From positions 1 through 64,000 of the forward strand of contig JABABM010000010.1 of assembly GCA_014238205.1 (NCBI GenBank): 64,000 nt of DNA, read 5' to 3'. Position numbers and translations under genes: made by a program. Shown here in pieces: positions 47,984-57,904 of the stretch. This DNA comes from Phycisphaerales bacterium (lineage in GTDB: Bacteria > Planctomycetota > Phycisphaerae > Phycisphaerales > SM1A02). The notes beneath the pieces are model-generated. The model was given only the letters and a program-made list of their open reading frames with translations, did not search any database and was not told where the DNA came from. Position 1 is the stretch's first letter, and each line of letters starts with the position of its first letter.

Positions 47984-49630
47984 TCAGCGGGCAGGAATGT
48001 CAACGTCCATCGAGCCGATCAAGATGTGGCCCAGCCTGAATGACGTGACCTTGACGCCCCCGGTTACCTGGAAGACCAGAAGCAGTCGCTGTTCCTGTGT
48101 CTTGGAGAGAACAGGCAGTTGGGATGGATTCTTGAGGTTGGATCGCGGGTCGAGGCTGATTTCAACTTCAGGCCCGAAGTAGAACACGTATCCGATCGGC
48201 GTGTACTTGTTGCCGTACGAGTCGATCAGGGCCAGTTCGTCCGAAGCATCCGTCTTATCTTCGAGTTGTCCCCCGAGCCAGGTCGGCTGGTTCCGACTTA
48301 CGTCGACGTATACGATCTGTGTGCCGGGTTCCGAATAGACGCCTTCCGCTTGAAGGGTCCGCGAGGTAGCCCCGCGATCGGCTTTCTGCATTCGAAGGAA
48401 GCCGGATTCAAAGTACCCGTCCACCATGCTCATGGTTCCAGGCACACGGTTTCTGCTGGGACTGAAATTCGGCACGCGATCGATTACGTGAACCAGGTTC
48501 ATTTCATCACTTCCAATGTCTCCTCCAAGGCGACGGTTGTCCGTTGCGCCGCCGGCACCCTGCTGGAGCATTGCCTGGATGTCCTGGCTCGATCCCGGCA
48601 TGGATGACCATTGGGGGACATCGAACCGAGTGCCTCGAATCTGGAGGTAGTTGGGTTTGAAGGCGTCATCTCGAGATTCGAATATGAACCAGAACTCCGC
48701 ATCCTTTCGACCCGGTACGCTCGTGGCGTAGTTCATTCGGTCATCAAACGCATAGCCCATGCGCATGACCGCATCTCCCTCGTGGGGATCCTGTGTCCAG
48801 TAGATTGGATGGAGGATTTCAGGACTGTCCTGTGCACTCGATTTGCCGACAAGTCGGACCTGACTGCTTGCCAGTGACAGTTGCTTTCCGAAGTCCATGG
48901 AAGAAGCGCTGAAGAGTGTCTTGAGCACCCAGTAGCGTGAACCCTCAGGGTGCAGTACTGGAGCATCTGAATTGGAGAGAAAGGCAACGCCGTCCGAGGG
49001 CATGGAGATCTGGCCCTCGCCATCATTGATGTTGTCTCTCAGGAGGGAGGCCTGCTTGTAGAGTTCGGGGTTGTATTGTTTAAGCGGCGAGGAACTGAGG
49101 TTCGGGTAGAGGGTTGAAACACTTGCCCACTCGTAGAACTCGTTCGTCCACTTGTCTACCGGCGCCCAGAGCCTGGGACCCATTTCACTCATGACACCTG
49201 CGCGACCTCGCTCACGCCCGAATCCCTGGTACCCCATGAACTCGTGCGGGCCATGAAAGAAGCCGAGTGCAGTCATCGTGAATCCAATGGTCAGGATTCC
49301 GGAGCACAGGCCGGCAATGGCCCCCATTGTCATGTCAGGCCCCTGGGGAATCATGATGTTGTTTCGAACAATCGAATCACCAGCCCATCTGAGGGTTGCA
49401 AGGAAGAAGGCAAAGAGTCCTGCCAGAGACAGTCCCATTGCATATCCATCGAAGGTTCCTCCGCCAAGGAAGAAGCCGATGGCCACTGGTTCCCAGAATG
49501 CAAATGCCAGCGCGCCGGCCACGATGACCGCAATCAGGTGGAGAAGGGAGCTGAAGAAGCCCTGGTTCGACCACCAGTAGGCAATCAGGAGGACAAGGCC
49601 GATGATGATCAGATTGAGGAGGACACTCAT
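47984..49630 (-). CDS. CvpA-like membrane protein with large extracytoplasmic domain
   Basis: 548 residues. The first 130 residues hold about four transmembrane helices arranged like CvpA/colicin V production proteins (LLNLIIIGLVLLIAYWWSNQGFFSSLLHL, GLFAFFLATLRWAGDSIV, MGAIAGLCSGILTIGFTMTALGFF). The remaining 400 residues are soluble, contain GFGRERGRAGVMSEMGPRLWAPVDKWTNEFYEWAS and several beta-rich segments ending KVTSFRLGHILIGSMDVDI, and match nothing I recognise. It begins in an ATGA overlap with the pseudo-GspE gene, so it belongs to the PilT-containing operon; a role as membrane partner of those ATPases is inferred. Confidence 0.75.
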   Translation of the reverse strand: MSVLLNLIIIGLVLLIAYWWSNQGFFSSLLHLIAVIVAGALAFAFWEPVAIGFFLGGGTFDGYAMGLSLAGLFAFFLATLRWAGDSIVRNNIMIPQGPDMTMGAIAGLCSGILTIGFTMTALGFFHGPHEFMGYQGFGRERGRAGVMSEMGPRLWAPVDKWTNEFYEWASVSTLYPNLSSSPLKQYNPELYKQASLLRDNINDGEGQISMPSDGVAFLSNSDAPVLHPEGSRYWVLKTLFSASSMDFGKQLSLASSQVRLVGKSSAQDSPEILHPIYWTQDPHEGDAVMRMGYAFDDRMNYATSVPGRKDAEFWFIFESRDDAFKPNYLQIRGTRFDVPQWSSMPGSSQDIQAMLQQGAGGATDNRRLGGDIGSDEMNLVHVIDRVPNFSPSRNRVPGTMSMVDGYFESGFLRMQKADRGATSRTLQAEGVYSEPGTQIVYVDVSRNQPTWLGGQLEDKTDASDELALIDSYGNKYTPIGYVFYFGPEVEISLDPRSNLKNPSQLPVLSKTQEQRLLLVFQVTGGVKVTSFRLGHILIGSMDVDIPAR

Positions 49631-51318
49631 GTCTTTGCGCCTTCCTTTGGATTCGCGGTGCTGGCCTTCTTCTTCTTCTTCTTCGAGGAGAAGACTCTTG
49701 ATATCTCCTCAAGCGAGGTTTCTCCCATGCCTGCCTTCAGGAGGCCCGCCTCCTGGAGAAGAAGCATTCTGTTGCGACGTGCCTGGGACATGGCGCTCTT
49801 GAGATCACCGCCTCGGAGATGTGTACGGATCTCCTTGTCGATGAAGAAGACTTCAAATACGCCGGTCTGGCCGAGATATCCCGTTCCCGTGCAGGCAGGG
49901 CAGTCCTCGATCTTGTTCTTGACCCTCACCTTGCCCACAGGCAGATGGATGTCCTTGCCAACTGCAGCAGGGAGCTTCAGATTTTCAAGTTCCTCCGGGG
50001 CAGCTGCCTGCTTGCATTTTGGGCAGAGTTTCCTGATCAATCGCTGGTTCATCACGGCTCGGAGAGGTTTCACCGCTTCGTCAACATCGCCGATGTACTT
50101 CACCCACTCCTTGACTGCATTTATCACCGAATCCGATTGCATGGTGAGGTAGATAAGCGGCCCTTGTCGACCCGGGGCAGCTGAAACACGGGCGACGTCG
50201 GCATCCTTGATGTCGGATGCCAGGCAGATGTCAGGGTCACGTCGAAGGATGGACTGGAGGCTCGTTGCATAGTCCACGTCCGGATTCGTCTTGTCCCATT
50301 CAACCTGGTCGACTCCGTCGATCCACGCCTCGGGTTCATATTCAAGAGTCTTGATGTTGCACGTATACGCATCATGCCTTCCAAGGCATGCGTAGCCTGT
50401 TGAGGTAAGACCCTGTCGAGGAGGCGCAGTGATCAGCACGATGCCGTGCCGGTCATGTGATTCCATGAGCCCGTCAAGCCCTTCCCGCTGCTGGGGAAGA
50501 AGGCCAAGCAGGTCATAGTTGATCTTGCGCTGTTCTTCTCGATTGAACTCGATGCATGCTGTCTGGCCCTTGGATGAACCGGATGTAGTCAGATGAACAT
50601 CCCGTTCGCCCGAAGGGGCTGTCATGGTGAACTTGCCGGACTGGCGTCTTCGCGTGTTTGAAATATCGAGGCCGGCGACTTGTTTGAAGAAGTTCAACAC
50701 ATGGCCACAGGCTTCCGTAGTCAACTCCCCATGTTTCGTTCGAACTCCATCAATGGTTCGCCAGAGGGCGGCGCCTGAATCTCCAAGGAGCATGTCGATC
50801 CGGGATGCTCGTTCTTCGATGGCCGGCCCGAGGACATCCTCGGCCTGCAGGTAGATCTGGAACTCGGGTTCATCCTTGCCTGGTATGGGCACGGACTTTC
50901 CACGGACATCGGCGAATTGGATGACGGCCGCCTGGCGAGCCTTGGCCTGCTTCTTGGCGTGCGCGGCATTGGCGTCCTTTGAGAAGGAAAGGACATACCT
51001 GCGTTCTTCAGGAACCGATTGATTCCGCACTCGCCAATAGACCAGGATCGGAATGAGCATGACCAGGAGTGCAGCGGGCAAACTGATCCAGAACGACCAT
51101 GCTGCGAACATGATGACGATTGCCAGGAAGCCTGCAGAGAGGTGCACGGCATTCCATCTCTTCCAGTTCAGGTTGAAATACCGAACGTCCTTGTCGAGCT
51201 TTGCCGACACCAGCCATCCCCAGGCTATGAATCCGCCCCACATCAGCAGGGGCTTCCATGGACTCATCAGGAGAACAGTGGAATCGCTCAGCACGTATTG
51301 AATCGATGGGGCGTTCAT
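49627..51318 (-). CDS. Membrane-anchored GspE/PilB-like protein with degenerate Walker A
   Basis: 563 residues. Two hydrophobic segments (about 22-40 and 60-95) precede a GspE/PilB-type core, an unusual N-terminus for this family. The core is recognisable from CPKCK and CPACTGTGYLGQTGVFEVF (the tetracysteine zinc motif, about 432-490) and RRDPDICLASDIKDADVARV (Walker B region, 360-375). At the P-loop, residues 297-306 read TAPPRQGLTS where the family has TGPTGSGKTT: the essential lysine is leucine. The Walker B glutamate is replaced (ASDIKD for VGEIRD). ATP hydrolysis is therefore doubtful. A Lys-rich tail (SSKKKKKK) ends it. It lies between an intact PilT-like gene and the CvpA-like gene. 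Confidence 0.85.
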   Translation of the reverse strand: MNAPSIQYVLSDSTVLLMSPWKPLLMWGGFIAWGWLVSAKLDKDVRYFNLNWKRWNAVHLSAGFLAIVIMFAAWSFWISLPAALLVMLIPILVYWRVRNQSVPEERRYVLSFSKDANAAHAKKQAKARQAAVIQFADVRGKSVPIPGKDEPEFQIYLQAEDVLGPAIEERASRIDMLLGDSGAALWRTIDGVRTKHGELTTEACGHVLNFFKQVAGLDISNTRRRQSGKFTMTAPSGERDVHLTTSGSSKGQTACIEFNREEQRKINYDLLGLLPQQREGLDGLMESHDRHGIVLITAPPRQGLTSTGYACLGRHDAYTCNIKTLEYEPEAWIDGVDQVEWDKTNPDVDYATSLQSILRRDPDICLASDIKDADVARVSAAPGRQGPLIYLTMQSDSVINAVKEWVKYIGDVDEAVKPLRAVMNQRLIRKLCPKCKQAAAPEELENLKLPAAVGKDIHLPVGKVRVKNKIEDCPACTGTGYLGQTGVFEVFFIDKEIRTHLRGGDLKSAMSQARRNRMLLLQEAGLLKAGMGETSLEEISRVFSSKKKKKKASTANPKEGAKT

Positions 51319-51337
51319 GATCGTGGTTCGTGTGGTT

Positions 51338-52471
51338 TCAGGAAATACCCTTCAGACGCATCTTGAGTTCTTCAGGCTTCGGAGTTGCCTCGAGCGCAAC
51401 CCTGTGGTGGATGATCTCATCTTCAACCAGTTCCACCAGGGCAGAGGTGAAGTCGATCATGCCTTCCTCGTGACTCTTTCGGATGATGTCGAGCAGTTCG
51501 CCTTCGCGAGCCTCCAGAATGTACTTCTGTACGGCAGGGGAGCCAAGGAGAATTTCGATGGCTGGTATACGGGGTATGTCGTCCTTGAGTGTCGGGAGCA
51601 GTTTCTGGTAGACGATGGCACGAAGATTGTACGCAAGCAGTTTTCGGATCTGCTCGACTTCATCGGCATCAAACAGATCATAGATGCGGCCGAAGGTCTG
51701 CCATGCGGACGAGGCATGAATTGTTCCGAAGACAAGGTGGCCCGTTTCTGCTGCACGAATGGCTGCTTCGAAGGTCTCCTTGTCTCGCATTTCACCAACA
51801 AGGACGACATCGGGGTCCTCGCGGACCAGGGCTCGCAGTGCCTCGTTGAAGTCGAGGCAGTCGATGCCGACTTCCCTCTGGTTGATGCTTGCCTTGTCAT
51901 CCTTGAAGATGTACTCGATCGGGTCTTCGATCGTGACGATGTGGCATCGGCGACGCTGATTGATGTATTGGAGCATTGCAGCGATCGAAGTCGACTTGCC
52001 TGAGCCGGTGACGCCCGCAAAGAGAATGATTCCGTTGGCCGCCATCGCAACGGGGCCGAGGATCTCTGGAATATGCAACTGTTCGAACGTCTTGATGTCT
52101 GAGGTGATCAGCCTGCATGCAAGGGCTACCTTGCCACGGGTCATGAAGATGTTGACCCTGAAGCGACGATCCTCGTCATAGTCATATGCAAGGTCGAATT
52201 GCCCATGCCGCTTGAAGTGCTTGTACTGTCCTTCGTCGAGGATATCGAGGCTGATCTGGTGGCCGTCGTTGCTGGCCACAATCTCCGTGTTGAGTGTTCG
52301 GAGCTCACCCCTCACTCGAATTCGAGGTTGCGTTTCAGCCTTGATATGGAGGTCAGACGCTTCGTAGTTGATGCAGGCCTTCAGCAATTTGCGGAAGATG
52401 GCCTCTCCGGCACCACTTTCAGTGCCCTTGTTGTGCGTGACAGCACCAAAGACTTCCTTAACTTCAGTCAT
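51338..52471 (-). CDS. PilT-like type IV pilus retraction ATPase
   Basis: 377 residues. Complete PilT/GspE hexameric ATPase: N-terminal ASDLHIKAETQPRIRVRGEL, Walker A GVTGSGKST (about 153-161), Asp box TIEDPIEYIF, Walker B DPDVVLVGEMRD, His box AAETGHLVFGTIHAS, and the C-terminal retraction-type segment. In the family it depolymerises pilin and drives twitching or DNA uptake (dprA is also present in this window). It is the first gene of a three-gene operon with the pseudo-GspE and CvpA-like genes, 19 bases before the next start. Confidence 0.92.
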   Translation of the reverse strand: MTEVKEVFGAVTHNKGTESGAGEAIFRKLLKACINYEASDLHIKAETQPRIRVRGELRTLNTEIVASNDGHQISLDILDEGQYKHFKRHGQFDLAYDYDEDRRFRVNIFMTRGKVALACRLITSDIKTFEQLHIPEILGPVAMAANGIILFAGVTGSGKSTSIAAMLQYINQRRRCHIVTIEDPIEYIFKDDKASINQREVGIDCLDFNEALRALVREDPDVVLVGEMRDKETFEAAIRAAETGHLVFGTIHASSAWQTFGRIYDLFDADEVEQIRKLLAYNLRAIVYQKLLPTLKDDIPRIPAIEILLGSPAVQKYILEAREGELLDIIRKSHEEGMIDFTSALVELVEDEIIHHRVALEATPKPEELKMRLKGIS

Positions 52472-54257: not shown

Positions 54258-57200
54258 TCAGGGACAGTCGCCCCAGCCGGCGATGACTTCAAGCAGCTCA
54301 TCGACGCCGTAGGGATTGCCCCAGCCAGCAATGACATGCAGCAGGTCGTCGACGTTGACCATGGAGTCCCCGTCGTAGTCACCCGGGCAGGTTTCCGCAT
54401 CGCCACACTCGGTCACGCTGACTCTGATCGCATCGACACCCGCCTCGACGACCGAAGCGTCGTTGATGTCTTCAGCTGTGAATCGGAGACGGAAATCTTC
54501 AGACGGCGTTATGCCGCTGATCTCCGAAACGACGAAAGATACGTCGTACCAGTTGCCGTTTGCCTCCGGATCGCTGGATTCAATGACTTCGAGTGTTACC
54601 CAGGACGAGCCCCCGTCATCAGATGCCTCGACGAGGAAGAAGTCATCCTGCGGCGCAGTCGTGCATCCGCCGCCGTTGTTGTACCAGCGACTGTAGGACA
54701 CCACCGCTCCAGCCTTGGAGGCGTCGAGCATGGGTGACGTCAGGATGGCCTGACCGCCATCCACATCACTGTTGCAGGAGCCTGCCGAACTGTTGTCCGT
54801 CAGCCAGCTCTGGCCGGAACCGTCCGCATCCGCGGGGGGGTCGCAACGCTCGCAGTTGACGGGGATGCCCCGGTCCCACTGGCCGTCAGTGGCTCCACCA
54901 GAGACAGACCAGCCCGTATCGGTCTCACAGTCATCCTCGTAGGTGACCACGATCTCGGAGTAGACACTCGCGGAGTTGGAGGAGGAGTTGTACACGGCTC
55001 CCTCTGAATCCTGAGCCGAGAACCAGTAGTCCACGGGAAGGCATTCAAGCGAGGGGAAGGAGGCGTCGTAGACGTTGTCAGAGACCTCGTACATGGTTCC
55101 CATGCTTTCAGTGCCATCCTGCACGTAGTGGAGTGCCCCAGTGCCAGGTTGTGGGACTACTTCACCGCTGCCGCCGATTTCAACACGGATGGTGGTGGAG
55201 CCGTCAGGATGCAGGACTTCCGGAAGACCTTCAGGGAAACCAAAGGACAAGGAGCCGCTTTCACAGGGCTCACCGGGGCCTTCAACGGACATGGTGCCGC
55301 TACCCGTGGCCCCATTCCATCCGCCAATTCGGATGAAGCAGGTCTGACCTTCGGTGACATCGACCGAGAGCAGGGAGGTGTAGCCTCCACAGCCGCTGTT
55401 GTCGCCATTGCATGCGATCTGGGTAAGACCGTCGCAGCTGCCCGTATACACGGCCAGGTCACTGTCGAAGTTGACCGAGTCGCACAGGCTCACGGTCATG
55501 GTGCCTGTGCCACAGGCTACCAGGCGGTACCAGACGTCAGGATCACACTCAGTCATGTAGGTTCCGGAGCACTGTGATTCATCCACGGGAACGCCGGATG
55601 ACAGTGCGCCGATCGTGTTGACATCCCACGTGCCCCAGGTGATTTCGCGTGCAGTCACGCAATCATCATTGTCCAGTGGCTCTGGAATATCACCCATGTT
55701 GTGAAGCTCGAATGCCTGCTGGATCTGCTCGATATGCGGGGTTCCGTTTGACAGGTCGCCGTCATCATCGTCAAGCGTGAGGTAGTCGAGCAGGATCGTT
55801 CCATTGATGGAAGAGCCGCTGTGAAGCGGCATGGAATCAATGACAAGCTGGGCAGCAATGTCAAAGCCATCCGCCGGATAGGCAGCTTCCATGAGATCGA
55901 CGAGGTCCCAGACCACGCCGGAAATCAACTGGCCGCAGGAGTGGATGGCACTTCCGCATGTGGAGCAGCCGGCAGCGTCATACTGACAGTTGTTGTCTGC
56001 ATTGCGGATGCCGTTCACGCAGTCGTTCGTGTAGAAGCCGCGGGCAAGTTGGTTGTCGCCCGTGATGAGCACTCCCATGACGTCACCCATGCCTTCGCCG
56101 TAGGCACCTTGCCCGGAGCCGGCGCAATCGACAAGGTGATGTCCGTACTCATGGTGGACGATGACCGAGAATGCCGTATTGGAGCAGCCGCCGGCCTCGT
56201 TGTAGAAGTTGATCGACGAGTAGTCGTAGAAGGCATTGCAGCTGCTGGAAAGGTTTACATTCACCGGGAATCCCTGCTGGGTTCCGATGATCGGGTAGCT
56301 TGGGCTGTAGTACAGGACGAAATCGCGAACGATGTTCGACTGCAGGTATGCATCGGATTGTGCCAGCGTGAACTCACTCGTGTTGGCGTTGTGGACTTCG
56401 CCGACGCCGCCGTCGGAAATCAAGGTGCTGTAGGTTGCTTCAGAACCCTGGTCGTTGTTGACGGCGAACCATTGACCGGTAAATCCACTGGTGGCCTCGA
56501 CCACGGCCCCTGAGTTGTCCAGGCTGAAGAAGCCATATTCATCAGCGTACGTGCTGGCGCCGTTGTTGCCGGACACGTAGGCATACGGCATGGCGTAATT
56601 GGAATCTGATTCACAGATGTCAGCACCCGATCCATCGGTGCTCTGCGAGGTCACGGTGCCACTGACATCTCCAAGAATGCTGCTGGAGATCGCGTTGGCC
56701 GCTGTTGTTGCAGCCGTGTGTCCGCAGTTGACGATCCTGTCTTCCTCGTAGAGCACGTCGCCCGTTTCCGAGTCGACCAGAAGAAGCCAGCGGCTGTAGG
56801 TGTCGTTGATCTTGGATCCAGATTCGACCTCGACTCGCGCGGCAAGACGTGGTGAGATTGCTTCGTCTTCGCCGCCGGCGAAGATCATGTAAGCAGGATC
56901 GGAGGCAAGACGTGCTGGCTGCCCGAGGAAACGGGTGCCGGTGGCCACGGCCTTGCCCAGGTCGGGCGTTGCTCCACGATTGATTCCAGGACGGAACTCG
57001 CCAAGGGGCTTCAGATCGGACGTTGCCTGTACGACCGGATGCCCTGCAGTGTTCTTGACCAGGAGTGAAAGGCGGGAACCGAAGACCGGGATGCCATCCA
57101 CGGATTGGTGGAAAAACATATTCGTAAACTTGTAGGTGTCAGTTGCTCGGTCGTACATCAACGGCTGTTCCTCAAGTCCGCCTGCAAAGGGCTTGCCGGC

Positions 57201-57509
57201 CTCAAGTTCAACCGCATCAATGCCGAACATGCCAGCGTGCAGCTCGATGAAGTCGCCAGCGGCATCAGCGGGGCTGCTGCCATTGGCAAAGGCATGTCCC
57301 GCGATCTTGTTGACGCGACCATCAGCGGTCTTGGCGACGATGATTCCCGGCTGCTGGGCCGTGAATTGGCTGAGAGCCAGCGCGGCAGAAGCAGAAGACT
57401 TCCTGGCAGGGGTTTTATCTTGAGCTGCGTGGATTGATCCAGCAAGAATGAATGCGGCAAGAGATGCTGCTGCGATAACTGGGCGATGTACGTAGTTGGG
57501 CGTATTCAT
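54258..57509 (-). CDS. Large surface zinc metalloprotease with dockerin-like tail
   Basis: 1083 residues. Signal peptide (VIAAASLAAFILAGSIHAA), an N-terminal propeptide of the fungalysin/thermolysin type (FHQSVDGIPVFGSRLSL, about 130-150), then the catalytic region with HEXXH in VIVHHEYGHHLVD and a downstream glutamate in GEGMGDVMGVL: an M36-like gluzincin. Downstream lie beta-sandwich domains rich in Cys and Asp (DDCVTAREITWG, DPDVWYRLVACGTGTMTVSLC). The C-terminus is a dockerin-like segment: DYDGDSMVNVDDLLHVIAGWG followed by a second DELLEVIAGWG lacking its calcium loop. It is secreted, probably for protein degradation outside the cell. GGAGAG precedes the ATG. Confidence 0.88.
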   Translation of the reverse strand: MNTPNYVHRPVIAAASLAAFILAGSIHAAQDKTPARKSSASAALALSQFTAQQPGIIVAKTADGRVNKIAGHAFANGSSPADAAGDFIELHAGMFGIDAVELEAGKPFAGGLEEQPLMYDRATDTYKFTNMFFHQSVDGIPVFGSRLSLLVKNTAGHPVVQATSDLKPLGEFRPGINRGATPDLGKAVATGTRFLGQPARLASDPAYMIFAGGEDEAISPRLAARVEVESGSKINDTYSRWLLLVDSETGDVLYEEDRIVNCGHTAATTAANAISSSILGDVSGTVTSQSTDGSGADICESDSNYAMPYAYVSGNNGASTYADEYGFFSLDNSGAVVEATSGFTGQWFAVNNDQGSEATYSTLISDGGVGEVHNANTSEFTLAQSDAYLQSNIVRDFVLYYSPSYPIIGTQQGFPVNVNLSSSCNAFYDYSSINFYNEAGGCSNTAFSVIVHHEYGHHLVDCAGSGQGAYGEGMGDVMGVLITGDNQLARGFYTNDCVNGIRNADNNCQYDAAGCSTCGSAIHSCGQLISGVVWDLVDLMEAAYPADGFDIAAQLVIDSMPLHSGSSINGTILLDYLTLDDDDGDLSNGTPHIEQIQQAFELHNMGDIPEPLDNDDCVTAREITWGTWDVNTIGALSSGVPVDESQCSGTYMTECDPDVWYRLVACGTGTMTVSLCDSVNFDSDLAVYTGSCDGLTQIACNGDNSGCGGYTSLLSVDVTEGQTCFIRIGGWNGATGSGTMSVEGPGEPCESGSLSFGFPEGLPEVLHPDGSTTIRVEIGGSGEVVPQPGTGALHYVQDGTESMGTMYEVSDNVYDASFPSLECLPVDYWFSAQDSEGAVYNSSSNSASVYSEIVVTYEDDCETDTGWSVSGGATDGQWDRGIPVNCERCDPPADADGSGQSWLTDNSSAGSCNSDVDGGQAILTSPMLDASKAGAVVSYSRWYNNGGGCTTAPQDDFFLVEASDDGGSSWVTLEVIESSDPEANGNWYDVSFVVSEISGITPSEDFRLRFTAEDINDASVVEAGVDAIRVSVTECGDAETCPGDYDGDSMVNVDDLLHVIAGWGNPYGVDELLEVIAGWGDCP

Positions 57510-57904
57510 TGGTACGAGTTCTCTCCACTCACAGGTCAATGATGTCAGGGCGTTGCACCCTTGAACCACTGCTGGTGTTCAACGGTCTCGGTCCGCAAAT
57601 GGTCTACAAACCACCGCCTGGACCAAGAACGCCCCCCCGGGCACTCTCCGCTCTCTCAAGTCAACAAAGTCTACAGCTCAGAAGGCGTATTCCAACTCCA
57701 TATCCAGCATATATGCTCCGTAAATGTGCCTTTGAGCAGAAGTTGGGAGCGTCAGTCGAAATTGCCTTGCGGCTTTCGCAGGCACGGAGAGCGCTGATAG
57801 TCCTTGATGAACCCGATATCCGGGTTTCTGGGCAAATCCCGGTACCATGCCCTGTCGTGACAGTCGAAACAAATACTCCGGAAGAAGAGGGAAGGAAAGG
57901 CCGC
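57510..57904. other. Divergent promoter region
   Basis: 395 bases between the metalloprotease and the FHA protein genes. It includes a perfect 12-bp palindrome AGCATATATGCT (57706-57717), close to an AT-rich stretch that could hold promoters in both directions. Open frames crossing it are extensions of the flanking genes and look non-coding. Confidence 0.4.

Follow-up and report, generated by a model that had tools for sequence, protein, structure and literature searches.

A three-gene unit of Planctomycetota couples the genes for an intact PilT-family ATPase, a membrane-anchored and often catalytically degenerate GspE/PilB-like protein, and a CvpA-like membrane protein

Three adjoining genes of a Phycisphaerales bacterium, encoding a PilT-family ATPase (PilT*, the PilT of this unit), a membrane-anchored GspE/PilB-like protein (labelled mPilB here) and a CvpA-like protein, constitute a unit that is conserved across the phylum Planctomycetota and in which mPilB appears to have lost its catalytic motifs more than once. 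We give an even chance to the interpretation that the three products form one membrane-bound machine, in which PilT* would burn ATP, the dead mPilB would serve as an anchored ring or adaptor, and the CvpA-like protein would be coupled to it. This reading draws on the retained gene order, the loss of catalytic motifs from mPilB next to an intact PilT*, purifying selection and the repetition of the loss, as well as on the single PilT* clade, the fold and anchor of mPilB, and a lipoprotein found in one family. A preliminary description of the same DNA, made from the sequence alone, had proposed an interpretation of this general kind, which is partly supported.

In the window, the 64,000-nucleotide stretch of DNA that was analysed, the unit lies on the minus strand in the 5' to 3' order pilT*, mPilB, CvpA-like gene. 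The pilT* gene (51338..52471; 377 aa) was assigned to the PilT family by TIGR01420, its nearest structures and a PilT tree, and is separated by 19 bases from the mPilB gene (49627..51318; 563 aa), which was recognised through PF00437, AlphaFold and Foldseek. The latter overlaps by ATGA with the CvpA-like gene (47984..49630; 548 aa; PF02674, AlphaFold pLDDT 86.2), and a check of the sequence confirmed the place and overlap previously given for the three genes. Flags of internal TGA codons had raised the question of selenocysteine or read-through, which was rejected, as these TGAs are the genes' own stops and the open reading frames end there. A divergent, IMP dehydrogenase-like reading frame called by eye from the sequence, which we take to be guaB, sits in the window where hisF stands elsewhere. 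The window also encodes, at 54258-57569 on the minus strand, a large predicted secreted protein with an HHEYGHHLV metallopeptidase-like motif and C-terminal dockerin-like repeats.

The unit is not a chance arrangement. Both the mPilB and CvpA-like genes are present in 60 of 61 genomes drawn from the window's genus, family and order; wherever the contigs permit a comparison, the two adjoin in the same order and pilT lies directly upstream. The order pilT*-mPilB-cvpA is retained in six families of the order and, across the phylum, in most of 23 families. In a sample of 391 Planctomycetota genomes, full-length mPilB matches came from about 23 of the families represented. These matches (at least 426 bits, with a start no later than model position 22) separate cleanly from ordinary GspE/PilB proteins, nearly all of which start at position 123 or later, and mPilB is, judged by sequence, a separate family across the phylum. 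A scan of named genomes, the reach of which extended to close relatives only, returned mostly Phycisphaerales and other Planctomycetota metagenome-assembled genomes. Four loci titled Kuenenia, Limnohabitans, Leptolyngbya and Cyanobacteria (L255, L263, L272 and L275) carry the planctomycete operon and are probably misnamed or mis-binned metagenome assemblies. Upstream of pilT*, hisF is found directly adjoining and on the same strand at 23 loci from 10 families (e.g., L155:1071-1826, L201:8243-9277), though not in the window. It is the only gene that recurs beside pilT* across families, and this recurrence suggests that the unit is chromosomal and vertically inherited. Comparison with the nearest relative gave dN/dS values of 0.05 for mPilB, 0.025 for PilT* and 0.046 for the CvpA-like protein; these are rough values, with dS above 1, and they indicate that none of the three genes is decaying and that mPilB is under strong purifying selection.

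PilT* is intact in sequence, as had been described. It scores 396 bits against TIGR01420 (cut-off 319), contains an intact Walker A sequence, GVTGSGKST (51989..52015, minus strand), that is kept in the aligned operon-type PilTs, and shares with all of these proteins four intact catalytic boxes (Walker A, Asp, Walker B and His). Its nearest solved structures are those of PilT followed by PilU, with the score favouring PilT. The canonical AIRNLIRE signature, which is required for retraction and not for hexamer formation (PMC6153414), was found in none of the aligned operon-type PilTs; it is replaced by AVQKYILE in the window (51512..51535, minus strand), while the genome's other PilT (L007) has AIANLIRE. 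In a tree of reading frames chosen by profile, the operon PilTs group with unlinked copies from family f26 in a single clade (SH-aLRT 99) that is distinct from those genomes' canonical PilTs; near its base also fall two sequences, from G384 and G395, whose genes do not belong to the module. The short PilT of G030 (L100) was left out, with its frame breaks, missing sequence and fragmented contig, and a candidate intein in the PilT of G008 (L105) was rejected, the apparent insert being a run of N.

The mPilB protein retains the architecture of a GspE/PilB ATPase from the N2 domain onwards, with a match to PF00437 at 3.7e-38. Several GspE/PilB models match it, every score being far below the equivalog cut-off (163.9 vs. 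630 bits for TIGR02533; 144.6 vs. 676 bits for TIGR02538). Its AlphaFold model (pLDDT 89.4) has helices at residues 21-47, 52-72 and 76-101, which a linker helix joins to the GspE/PilB core, and Foldseek placed this model with PilB, PilF and GspE, with a TM-score normalised to the target of up to 0.82 for PilB/PilF. The zinc tetracysteine CPKC...CPAC (C432, C435, C473 and C476; 49891..50025, minus strand) is retained. In contrast, all four catalytic motifs are degenerate, both in the window's protein and throughout its class: the P-loop reads TAPPRQGLTS, with Leu304 in place of the lysine (50401..50430, minus strand), the Asp box reads TLEYEPE, Walker B reads SDIKD where active relatives have GEIRD (50203..50217, minus strand), and the His box is QGPLIYLTMQ rather than the expected TGHLxxxTxH. 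The fold, zinc motif, P-loop and replaced Walker B glutamate reported in the preliminary description thus held up to sequence comparison, profile search and structure prediction. Its N-terminal membrane anchor stood as well, though with three predicted transmembrane helices (residues 21-101; 51016..51258, minus strand), conserved in homologues, instead of two. In the model these helices and the linker precede N2, and the N1/MshEN docking domain is absent, which suggests that the anchor has replaced the docking region of GspE/PilB. From its motifs, mPilB of the window's class probably no longer binds or hydrolyses ATP.

An expectation that the P-loop would be degenerate in all homologues was borne out within the window's lineage and not beyond it. 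None of the readable Phycisphaerales mPilB copies has the P-loop lysine, the position of which is occupied by L, R, G, V or A across the 55 rows of the folding alignment, next to an invariant preceding glycine, and every other family of the window's class is degenerate as well. Outside the class, however, complete motifs are found in every one of the 22 f26 copies, in two copies each from f31 and f83, in one from f86 and in one of the two from f82, while mPilB is degenerate in f54, f57, f81, f85, f87 and the other f82 copy (G388), in which the lysine is kept and the remaining catalytic motifs are gone. Decay extends to N2-domain residues that are conserved in active copies, and the zinc cysteines have been lost in four f2 genomes, f62 and G388; they are also partly lost in the mPilB of G422. 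Because active mPilB and GspE/PilB have motifs in common, the intact form would be ancestral, and the intact P-loops outside the class suggest that a membrane-anchored ATPase, once active, became inactive on at least two and probably three occasions, which does not imply that the window's copy is active.

The number of losses depends on the genes used for the trees. A tree of mPilB alone groups all degenerate copies together, and removal of the nucleotide-binding core leaves a single origin of degeneracy neither supported nor rejected (AU p 0.43). PilT* alone rejects a single origin of mPilB degeneracy (AU p 1.6e-42), as does its concatenation with core-free mPilB (AU p 0.0007), which needs three state changes. 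Both the PilT* tree and the concatenation place the degenerate families from outside the class next to f26, with its active copies, and join the two f82 genomes as a pair. Provided that the genes shared one history, these sequence comparisons argue for at least two independent losses of mPilB catalysis, in the window's class and in the clade of f54, f57, f81, f85 and f87, and probably for a third in the f82 genome G388, which has an intact relative.

The linkage of pilT* differs with the state of mPilB. PilT* adjoins every inactive mPilB that has upstream sequence, except in G395, G422 and the interrupted contig of G030; G395 and G422 are divergent genomes in which mPilB is inactive and a clear operon-type PilT is missing. 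They contain seven and four PilT paralogues, respectively, and a degenerate mPilB without an adjoining operon-type PilT (L214, L217, L298-L302, L318-L322). Across much of f26, a family with active mPilB, the two genes are unlinked. The idea that PilT* becomes dispensable when mPilB is active found no support, as the f26 genomes examined retain an unlinked orthologue.

The window's CvpA-like protein matches PF02674 at 7.8e-6 with 26.4 bits, and 46 of 52 homologues match the same model at E values up to 0.01; the match of the window's copy appears real, though under the Pfam gathering cut-off of 29.3. AlphaFold predicts four N-terminal helices, assigned to the membrane (residues 2-122; 49265..49627, minus strand), followed by a sandwich-like beta-rich domain (residues ~136-345; 48596..49225, minus strand) and a second beta-rich domain (residues ~380-548; 47987..48493, minus strand). 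Foldseek returned nothing at E <0.001 for the beta-rich part, the best match having a Z of 6.3 over 83 residues, and the first domain has no firm solved-structure match. In family f4, five of whose six genomes were covered, the operon gene lacks the C-terminal domain, which is encoded elsewhere as a lipobox protein (LAGCG, LVGCG, LSGCG or similar). Because the f4 version is a separate lipoprotein, this domain is probably periplasmic, and the four helices would fit such a placement by the positive-inside rule. Loci of the separate gene are L325-L330 (G055, G039, G043, G051, G048 and G059); the f4 genome G051 has two tandem copies, and the copy in G048, from f5, has a signal-like N-terminus. An earlier suggestion that the CvpA-like protein is a channel found no support in this model of a four-helix membrane protein with probably periplasmic domains.

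In the proposed machine, PilT* would hydrolyse ATP in the cytoplasm and act on mPilB, a ring or adaptor that would be fixed to the inner membrane by its three N-terminal transmembrane helices. The four-helix CvpA-like protein would be the membrane partner of mPilB and, in the window's class, may pass motion or a signal to the periplasmic beta-rich domains. Complex formation, the driving of mPilB by PilT*, the topology of the CvpA-like protein and the mechanical output are all inferred. More tentatively, and with somewhat less than even confidence, the unit could be a pilus-independent trans-envelope motor specific to Planctomycetota, in which a PilT ring drives a membrane-fixed, often dead GspE ring that is coupled via the CvpA-like protein to periplasmic domains. 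Against the one-machine reading, the unlinked pilT* genes of f26 indicate that the pair need not be co-transcribed, the divergent genomes G395 and G422 have no clear operon-type PilT, and at three f26 loci the CvpA-like gene was not found adjoining mPilB. The other PilTs of each genome could be the real partners of mPilB.

Among the alternatives weighed, the module may instead be an accessory to type IV pili or a type II secretion system (T2SS) encoded elsewhere, with PilT* a PilU-like helper and mPilB and the CvpA-like protein its membrane dock near GspF/PilC. No GspF/PilC, secretin or pilin match was found on the window's contig, in agreement with the preliminary description, but the genome encodes six canonical GspE/PilB proteins, four GspF/PilC-type proteins, three secretins and more than 20 pilin-like N-termini elsewhere, and PilU also lacks AIRNLIRE (PMC6762196). 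We nevertheless consider an accessory role unlikely: hisF, and no pilus gene, recurs beside pilT* across families, mPilB lacks the N1 region by which GspE/PilB dock, and PilT* scores nearer to PilT than to PilU. That mPilB and PilT* assemble as true mixed hexamers, with dead subunits as structural members of one ring, seems improbable. As PilT/VirB11-like ATPases, the two have closely related folds, and loss of catalysis with retention of the fold would suit a structural subunit; however, PilT* is a full PilT that could form its own ring by homology, the anchor and zinc region of mPilB are absent from PilT, and work in Vibrio argued that PilT and PilU do not mix (PMC6762196). An arrangement in which one ring docks or stacks on the other is no less probable.

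Retention of the mPilB fold, the P-loop glycine and the Asp-box glutamate despite the lost catalytic motifs would also be expected if mPilB were a sensor or scaffold in the membrane, its former nucleotide site now binding some other ligand, with PilT* acting separately and only co-expressed. To this explanation, which the absence of pilT* linkage in many active-mPilB genomes also favours, we assign a slim chance, as the three-gene order is retained through most of the inactive lineages. The loss of catalytic motifs might mark a decaying pseudogene, a notion to which we give next to no credence and which is already contradicted by the open frames in 60 of 61 relatives and a dN/dS of about 0.05. 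For the one-machine reading, work in Vibrio provides a precedent of a live pilus ATPase served by a Walker-dead sister: PilU supports retraction only when PilT is present, even if that PilT is Walker-dead (PMC6762196).

Repeated catalytic loss beside an intact sister would amount to a natural test of whether rings of the pilus type can function in pairs of one dead and one live member, which has so far been approached with engineered PilT/PilU mutants. For the planctomycetes, with their unusual cell biology, the unit would add a conserved envelope machine with clear genes to delete. No description of this three-gene composition was found in the literature searched, as the preliminary description had supposed; this is weak evidence of novelty, most subscription papers lying outside the search.

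Among known systems, GspE/PilB of the T2SS and type IV pilus resemble mPilB in their N2 domain, C-terminal ATPase fold and zinc tetracysteine, whereas mPilB has three transmembrane helices instead of N1 and has lost four catalytic motifs, and its unit, unlike T2SS and type IV pilus loci, is linked to no pilin, GspF or secretin gene. MarP combines CvpA-like helices with a periplasmic domain. The CvpA-like protein of this unit likewise has a four-helix N-terminal part followed by probably periplasmic domains, but these are beta-rich, without a firm solved-fold match, and co-encoded with pilus-type ATPases. Like PilT and PilU, PilT* is an ATPase of the PilT family that is full-length and has its boxes intact, and it lacks AIRNLIRE as PilU does (PMC6762196), but it forms its own clade and is encoded with mPilB and the CvpA-like gene. 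A natural pilus-type ATPase without a Walker A box has been reported in Bdellovibrio PilT1 (PMC4237445); unlike mPilB, it belongs to a pilB-pilT1-pilC operon and has no transmembrane anchor described. The pairing of PilU with Walker-dead PilT in Vibrio cholerae (PMC6762196) likewise involves a live ATPase that needs a possibly dead sister, although there, unlike mPilB, the dead partner is an engineered mutant that is cytosolic and works in a pilus.
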